From NCBI GenBank assembly GCA_945871875.1, contig CAMBYC010000015.1, positions 1 through 36,385 of the forward strand: a stretch of DNA of 36,385 nt. The letters run 5' to 3'. The notes under the pieces are model-generated. The model made no database searches, was not told where the DNA came from, and was given only the letters and a program-made list of their open reading frames with translations. Shown in pieces: positions 1 through 1,759 of this stretch. Within the stretch, counting starts at the first letter, position 1; each line of letters begins with the position of its first letter. A program made the position numbers and the translations under genes. The stretch comes from Sphingobacterium thalpophilum. Its GTDB lineage: Bacteria > Bacteroidota > Bacteroidia > Chitinophagales > Chitinophagaceae.

Positions 1-36
1 ACTAATCGAATTATAAAGCAAATGGCTTTTTAGGTC

Positions 37-246
37 AATCTTACCCATAATTGCCTTAATCTTACCCTTATTACCCCAACATTGAGGCATATTACTACAA
101 TATTGAAGCCTATAACCTTAACATTGATGCTTATACCCCTAACATTAGGGCCTATAAACATAACATTAAAGCTTAAAACCCAGACATTAATGCTTATACC
201 CCCAACTTTAGGGTTAATCAGCTTAAATTTGATGGTAAATCACTTA
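37..246 (+). repeat. Degenerate 21-bp tandem repeat array, about 10 units
   Basis: Units read in 21-nt steps: 79 ACATTGAGGCATATTACTACA, 100 ATATTGAAGCCTATAACCTTA, 121 ACATTGATGCTTATACCCCTA, 142 ACATTAGGGCCTATAAACATA, 163 ACATTAAAGCTTAAAACCCAG, 184 ACATTAATGCTTATACCCCCA, 205 ACTTTAGGGTTAATCAGCTTA; weaker units at 37, 58 and 226. Confidence 0.8.
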
Positions 247-309
247 AAATGATAGCTTACCAAGGCTTATAAATGAGGTGAAAAGCTCAGGAATTGATGA
301 AATAAAGTC

Positions 310-414
310 TAACCTATCCCTAATAATGTTCAATATTGGGTTTAGAAGAGTTAAGTTAAGGGTAACTAGGGGTAATGTTAGGGTGATAAGGCTTAATCTG
401 AGTTAATTCCAATG
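310..414 (-). repeat. Inverted-orientation copies of the same 21-bp repeat (about 4-5 units)
   Basis: Reverse complement reads AGCCTTATCACCCTAACATTA (393-373), CCCCTAGTTACCCTTAACTTA (372-352), ACTCTTCTAAACCCAATATTG (351-331), again in 21-nt phase. The first resembles forward ATGCTTATACCCCTAACATTA. Confidence 0.6.
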
Positions 415-517
415 AGTATATTAGACTAAACTATATGAAAAAGGGATAGATTACATGCATTATTTTCAAGAAATTTTGCAGTCAAAAAATATTTTTACAA
501 AATAAATAGGAAATATT

Positions 518-548
518 TTTGTAGTTACATAAAACTCCCTTACTTTTG
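518..548 (+). promoter_or_regulatory. Predicted Bacteroidetes-type promoter for the S10 operon
   Basis: TTTG at 518-521, 19-nt spacer, TACTTTTG at 541-548. Matches the Bacteroidetes -33 TTTG / -7 TAnnTTTG pattern, with rpsJ ATG at 580. Confidence 0.65.
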
Positions 549-579
549 CCCTCCCGTTGAAAAGTGGGAAATAAATAGT

Positions 580-885
580 ATGTCTCAGCGAATCAGAATA
601 AAATTACAAAGTTACGATCACAGTCTAGTAGATAAGTCTGCAGAAAAGATCGTTAAAACAGTTAGAAGTACAGGAGCAGTAGTAACGGGTCCAATTCCTT
701 TACCAACGAGGAAGAAGATTTTCACGGTATTGCGTTCTCCACACGTAAACAAGAAAGCACGTGAGCAATTCGAATTGTGCACGCACAAGCGACTTTTAGA
801 CATTTACACTTCATCTTCACGAACTGTTGATGCATTAAGTAAATTAGATCTTCCTAGTGGAGTGGAAGTTGAGATTAAAGCCTGA
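580..885 (+). CDS. rpsJ: 30S ribosomal protein S10
   Basis: [25 protein letters not shown]...[29 protein letters not shown]; canonical S10. Confidence 0.98.
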
Positions 886-1141
886 TAAATTTAGGCAAAT
901 CAAATGAATTCATCTCCCAATTTTTCGTCGGAGGCGAGAGAAAAAGGAGCGCTGATAATGTTTTAAAAAAGCTGTTAACGCAGCAGGAAATATGAACAAG
1001 CCCTTCGAGGTTTGTTTACTGCCGGTACTTCCGAGGTTGATATTCAACTACAAAGGAAAAGGTCGTCAGCAAACTAGAATTGAAGTATGCGGTGTTACCG
1101 TACTGTTCTCGTAACCGAGGAGGGGCAAAACAAAATATACG
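886..1141 (+). promoter_or_regulatory. Candidate structured mRNA leader between rpsJ and rplC
   Basis: 256-nt gap with hairpins: GCTG/CAGC (971-984), AACAAGCC-CTTCGA-GGTTTGTT (995-1016), GTTGA-TAT-TCAAC (1036-1048), and CGGTGTTAC/GTAACCG with two bulges (1090-1117). Confidence 0.4.
992..1114 (+). CDS. Candidate 40-aa leader/short ORF upstream of rplC
   Basis: ATG at 992, TAA at 1112-1114: MNKPFEVCLLPVLPRLIFNYKGKGRQQTRIEVCGVTVLFS; GCAGGAAAT just upstream. No homology available. Confidence 0.25.
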   Translation: MNKPFEVCLLPVLPRLIFNYKGKGRQQTRIEVCGVTVLFS

Positions 1142-1759
1142 ATGAGAGGAATTATCGGTAAGAAAATCGGGATGACCAGCATCTTCAATGCTGATGGTAA
1201 ACACGTCCCATGTACAATTATTGAAGCGGGTCCATGTACCGTTACACAAGTTAAGACCCAAGATACAGACGGGTACAATGCATTGCAGTTGGCATTTGGT
1301 GAGAAGAAGGAAAAGCATACAACGCAAGCACAGCAAGGTCACTTTGACAAATCAGGATCTACTCCAAAAAAAATCATTAAAGAATTTCGCGATTATTCCC
1401 TAGTAAAGAATGCTGGAGAAGTTATTACACTAGAAATTTTCACTGAAGGTGAAAAGGTTGATGTTGTAGGAACTACAAAAGGTAAAGGTTTTCAGGGTGT
1501 TGTAAAACGTCACGGTTTTAGTGGTGTTGGTCAACAATCACACGGTCAGCATGATAGACAACGTGCACCAGGATCTATTGGTAATTCATCAGATGCATCA
1601 CGCGTATTTAAAGGTATGCGTATGGCAGGAAGAATGGGTTGCGATCAGGTGAAAGTTAAAGGACTTAAAGTGTTGAAAATTTTCCCTGAAAAGAATTATA
1701 TACTGTTGAGCGGTTGCGTTCCAGGATTTAATGGTTCTATTGTTTATGTTCAGAAATAA
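1142..1759 (+). CDS. rplC: 50S ribosomal protein L3
   Basis: [32 protein letters not shown]...; L3 signature [13 protein letters not shown]. Confidence 0.98.

Follow-up and report, generated by a model that had tools for sequence, protein, structure and literature searches.

A probable fold-back minisatellite in decay upstream of the S10 operon of a Chitinophagaceae-like Bacteroidota

Results

The sequence analysed here (the window, 36,385 bp) is the whole of one contig (G000:C15) of a draft genome of 216 contigs and 3.24 Mb. The contig starts only 33 bp upstream of an array of 21-bp repeats, and the left boundary of the array, with any terminal repeat or target-site duplication there, lies outside the sequence. 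Downstream of the array are the predicted promoter of the S10 operon and rpsJ. The features are listed below, each with its evidence in brackets.

34..243, forward strand: forward arm of ten 21-bp units, consensus CTAACATTAAGGCTTATAACC (TRF, autocorrelation, unit profile, model R1)
82..252, forward strand: chance open frame with a TTG start, 56 aa, judged non-coding (codon-difference test, column entropy, no Pfam family)
222..285, forward strand: 3' tail of the forward arm, ending in GAGGTGAAAAG (gapless alignment to C147:884-947)
271..318, no strand: loop between the arms, approximate limits (inferred from the arm limits)
319..402, reverse strand: inverted arm of about four 21-bp units in exact 21-bp phase (in-phase profile score)
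518..549, forward strand: likely S10 operon promoter of the Bacteroidota type, TTTTTG ... TTACTTTTG, predicted, downstream of the array (location of a block conserved among genus relatives)
580..885, forward strand: rpsJ, ribosomal protein S10, the first gene downstream of the array (PF00338, E 4e-36)

The sequence-only reading of this DNA had described a 21-bp array upstream of the S10 operon. That array is real, and Tandem Repeats Finder (TRF), autocorrelation and a unit profile agree on it. TRF found a period of 21 at 67-210 (6.9 copies, 70% matches, 0% indels, score 92) and a second period of 42 bp at 108-189 (score 108). Over 37-246, identity at lag 21 was 0.65, compared with 0.285 +/- 0.032 in 1000 dinucleotide shuffles, whose maximum across all lags was 0.46. 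According to the unit profile, the units at 34 and 55 are weak and those in 76-243 are strong; these eight units scored 12.8-25.0 bits with their own profile, the background maximum being 13.5 bits among 71,530 positions. The 3' tail is shared with a second locus of the genome on contig C147: BLAST aligned window 242-285 with C147:904-947 (78%, E 1.6 alone), and the rest of the alignment of 222-285 was read by eye from the sequences.

The forward units had been described correctly, but an inverted half at 319-402 had been overlooked. Minus-strand units are located at 382-402, 361-381, 340-360 and 319-339 in a single 21-bp register, and a scan with the single-unit profile picks out those at 382-402, 361-381 and 319-339. 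With a profile trained solely on forward units, the four-in-phase score of the inverted arm was 32.7 bits, whereas the background maximum was 15.5 bits (0 of 855,198 positions as high). The forward array at 34-243 and the in-phase inverted units at 319-402 therefore make up one structure, in which a tail and loop separate the two. Folding of the window copy compared with shuffles gave z -1.3 as RNA and z -2.3 as DNA. No Rfam covariance model matched the window at its gathering score.

A model built from the sequence only (R1) found the 21-bp unit, in both orientations, at two more intergenic loci of the same genome, on contigs C147 and C92, which bears out the idea of an old repeat family. A second model that included C92 revealed no further convincing locus in this genome beyond the window, C147 and C92. 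The proposed search for the unit yielded two loci in its own genome; across 40 other genomes of the genus, no match was convincing (best E 0.005). At C92, forward and inverted units lie inside about 260 bp; the arms are collinear across 105 bp with 71 Watson-Crick pairs and fold into a near-intact hairpin (-116 kcal/mol, z -9.9). At C147, the forward units form two 85-bp blocks, the inverted units are weak and the fold has z -2.8. The flanking genes are in tandem at the window, convergent at C147 (aminotransferase and ABC-F genes) and divergent at C92, and the three loci are strongly diverged from one another. The fold z score is graded from C92 through C147 to the window, indicating that the family displays stages of decay. 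The window copy is an eroded member, in which the hairpin is largely lost and is weaker than at C92.

The fusA gene runs to the end of a separate contig, C46, so the gap between fusA and rpsJ is unclosed here, with a minimum length of about 580 bp. In relatives, where the gap was counted from the last fusA residue that could be aligned, it measures 150-322 bp in the genus (n=17) and 27 bp in an outgroup (n=1), and it mostly contains an intrinsic terminator and a Bacteroidota-type promoter. The 21-bp array was absent from the gap in all 18 relatives. DNA similarity between the window and genus relatives starts near 517 (510 at the earliest), so the array precedes the S10 promoter. Because the array lies between fusA and this predicted promoter, it is probably outside the S10 mRNA leader. 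The intergenic DNA of genus relatives is too diverged for an empty-site comparison with the window element. In a search with ribosomal protein L3, the nearest named relatives were mostly Chitinophagaceae (top match 79%), and no such array was seen near rpsJ in named relatives identified in this way. In one of the 18 relatives, G015 (L113), two AATGTGAT-like arrays in inverted orientation follow right after the fusA terminator, and their sequence is unrelated to that of the window array; the site therefore tolerates such arrays.

Tandem arrays were counted in a 360-kb sample of the same genome (L131-L148). Periods that are multiples of 7 bp were found in 22 of 30 intergenic arrays versus 3 of 12 in coding DNA, and the preferred intergenic periods in the genome were 7, 14 and 21 bp. 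Genus relatives had four intergenic arrays in a 348-kb sample, far sparser than here. A fold-back partner within 400 bp accompanied 4 of the 30 intergenic arrays and none in the reversed control. When the second model (R2) was run on 119 other genomes of the family, nine had a match at E <= 0.01, about 1.2 being expected by chance, and G174 gave seven R2 matches. Most of the R2-matched loci examined are AACCTTA-type heptamer arrays in other genera of the family, several of them clear inverted pairs; the matches are weak.

In the window itself, identity at lag 7 was 0.31 (p 0.21), and AACCTTA ranks first among 16,384 heptamers both in the forward arm and in C147. Heptamer substructure in the 21-bp unit gave column-shuffle p values of 0.09-0.15 in the forward arrays and nothing in the inverted arm of the window. 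The link between the unit and AACCTTA is partly circular, because the loci supplying the heptamer were chosen by the same profile. These patterns suggest, without proving, that the 21-bp unit may have descended from three AACCTTA-type heptamers; with a column-shuffle p of about 0.1 and a profile-selected heptamer, this origin is retained only as something that we infer.

Discussion

With a probability of about 0.7, we take the block for a copy of a non-coding fold-back minisatellite that occurs at few loci in a Chitinophagaceae-like Bacteroidota and is now drifting. The 21-bp unit would have been multiplied in tandem by replication slippage. Template switching at a hairpin may have placed an inverted copy of part of the array some 50 bp downstream, and the two resulting arms would be able to form a long, imperfect hairpin. 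The element in the fusA-rpsJ gap would then have drifted, with many substitutions and few indels, until the pairing was mostly lost. Slippage and an inverted template-switch copy would together explain the two arms, the lack of right-hand terminal repeats, the occurrence of differing units in the same architecture, and the decay. Such an element presumably has no present function. In the stretch before the S10 operon nothing points to a protein, nor to a site dedicated to regulation. The operon thereby loses a candidate regulator or peptide, and a decaying fold-back repeat takes its place.

The array had been thought a possible relic of a heptapeptide-repeat protein gene, and one frame is indeed open across 72 codons (34-252) without an obvious start; there is no early ATG and the first usable start is the TTG at 82. 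A repeated 7-codon unit that has no stop keeps its frame open, so no gene is needed for this. Single-base codon differences between adjacent units were 8 synonymous versus 21 non-synonymous (28%; expected 25%), which gives no sign of purifying selection on codons. Column entropy was lowest at first codon positions and third positions were not the highest, and a Pfam search of the open frame found nothing above the cut-off. On the codon-difference test and the Pfam result the coding relic was rejected. The frame is interrupted by a 1-bp shift and stops at C147 and by stops at C92, no intact orthologous repeat gene occupies the site in 18 relatives, and the existence of an inverted arm is a further argument against this origin, which we regard as hardly credible. 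Another idea was that selection on spacing keeps the array in helical phase, each unit spanning two turns, as an element that binds a protein or bends the DNA ahead of the S10 promoter. In its favour are the unit length of two helical turns and, in the window, a 10.5-bp signal of AA/TT (p 0.018) together with a strong one of GC dinucleotides. But the AA/TT signal is missing at both C147 (p 0.97) and C92 (p 0.53), the array has a single A/T run of at least 4 (one AAAA in 210 bp), and A-tracts every 10-11 or 21 bp were not found in the window array (AAA/TTT power at 10.5 bp, p 0.33). Bent or phased DNA was rejected for the unit family, since the AA/TT signal is in the window only. The sibling arrays have steps of 85 bp (4x21+1) and 22 bp and thus break strict phase, leaving selection on spacing unsupported; the lack of indels in 210 bp is unremarkable where indels are much rarer than substitutions. 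The relatives also have no array upstream of rpsJ, and we think a phased element very improbable.

The inverted arm raises other possibilities. The arms may form an RNA hairpin that acts as a terminator or 3'-end protector of the fusA mRNA, or as an insulator before the S10 operon. This would fit the better folding of C92 and C147 than of shuffles, and the intrinsic terminator in the relatives' gap when a simple terminator search of window 1-1200 found none. On the other side, the window copy is barely above shuffles in folding, a terminator would be needless at C92, which lies between divergent genes, and the natural fusA terminator may sit in the stretch beyond the contig end. Mismatches in the C92 stem were G-U in 10 cases and A-C in 6, a bias that is not significant (p 0.45) in these small numbers; the outer 50-bp part of C92 appears G-U-rich, in a region chosen post hoc. 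RNA-level selection on the hairpin found no support in this G-U count, and a role as an RNA hairpin seems quite improbable. The best rival is a transposable origin, because two of the three loci adjoin half-copies of a hairpin-doublet repeat and the left end is missing. The array would then be the minisatellite core of a non-autonomous miniature inverted-repeat transposable element (MITE) comparable to BrickBuilt; a transposase acting in trans would move it, and its terminal repeat would lie beyond the contig end. The half-copies (GACCACGAAGTGGTC and CGACTCCGAAGGAGTCG) lie about 70-120 bp from the arrays at C147 and C92; the genome has about 43 copies of the doublet, often paired in inverted orientation at distances of 170-345 bp, and four Y1 transposase genes. 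Against this, no hairpin-doublet was found in the 177 bp to the right of the inverted arm of the window, and several kinds of repeat may simply accumulate in long intergenic regions. The array as core of the doublet element was rejected, as no 21-bp unit was visible in the doublet copies examined. Since there are only three loci and these are strongly diverged, nothing suggests recent movement, and we find a transposable origin unlikely.

As a fold-back minisatellite, the array belongs by analogy to an already known kind of intergenic repeat, to which BrickBuilt and heptamer arrays come closest. REPs are palindromes of 20-40 bp, and REP/BIME elements are associated with Y1 (RAYT) transposases. 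The array is like REP/BIME in being intergenic, with inverted pairs and hairpins, in a genome that has Y1 transposases and a hairpin-doublet family; it differs in that its 21-bp unit is tandem and is itself not a palindrome. BrickBuilt of Porphyromonas gingivalis is a minisatellite-MITE with a 23-nt tandem unit in a direct array, present in 19 copies (Klein et al. 2015, PMC4596501). It has a leader and a tail with small terminal inverted repeats and predicted long stem-loops, and was not found outside the species (PMC4596501). Both have a Bacteroidota host, an intergenic position, a unit close to two helical turns in length, predicted stem-loops and, within one species, several copies that have diverged; a tandem intergenic unit of about 20 bp is likewise found at several loci here (three loci, 21-bp unit). 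In contrast to the 19 copies and 23-nt unit of BrickBuilt, the present family has three loci, a 21-nt unit and an inverted second arm. Terminal inverted repeats were not seen, the left end being beyond the contig, and a shared 3' tail joins the window with C147 only, the left end again being out of reach. The comparison of the two units covered their period (23 versus 21).

Intergenic direct-repeat arrays of heptamers (TAACTGA and related) have been described in Beggiatoaceae, cyanobacteria and some Bacteroidetes (PMC4679880). In the Bacteroidetes cases, close relatives are without the repeats and contigs end inside arrays (PMC4679880). The window array resembles these in its intergenic position, its absence at the same site in relatives and the nearby contig end, and this genome has many arrays of 7, 14 and 21 bp. 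It differs from them in the 21-bp unit and in a lag-7 identity that is not significant; heptamer arrays lie next to the start codon, whereas the window array lies before the promoter.

In this one small genome, intergenic arrays strikingly favour multiples of 7 bp and tend toward inverted pairs. A comparable pattern is known for heptamers in other bacteria, where the mechanism is not explained. A rather improbable but broader idea is that the 7/21-bp fold-back arrays of Chitinophagaceae form a class of DNA that propagates itself, its single-stranded hairpins being copied and dispersed by host or transposase activity (e.g. a Y1 enzyme); this activity, rather than slippage, would set the 7-bp step. 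If this is true, differing unit sequences would share the architecture and the kind of site.

Several other repeats were observed. Intergenic AACCTTA and ACCTTAAGCCTTAT heptamer arrays are located at L271, L274 and L275 (G174) and at L276 (G068); several arrays of G174 and G068 are near-perfect inverted pairs flanking a short loop, and in G068 a 139-bp block of heptamer arrays is itself repeated 3.3 times. In the genome of the window, L143:18013-18406 (G000:C6) holds a second, unrelated intergenic 21-bp array with a higher order of 84 bp (4x21). Its A-tracts are strongly phased at 10.5 and 21 bp, so that bent DNA is more plausible there than in the window array. The intergenic array at L144:19220-19800 (G000:C7) has periods of 21, 43 and 64 bp, internal palindromes ACAATTTAATTGTA and a fold z of -6.5. 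The hairpin-doublet repeat consists of GACCACGAAGTGGTC, about 33 bp and CGACTCCGAAGGAGTCG; it is MITE- or BIME-like, a control pattern occurs once against its roughly 43 copies, and examples are found at L192:528-886, L194:556-739 and L195:511-701.
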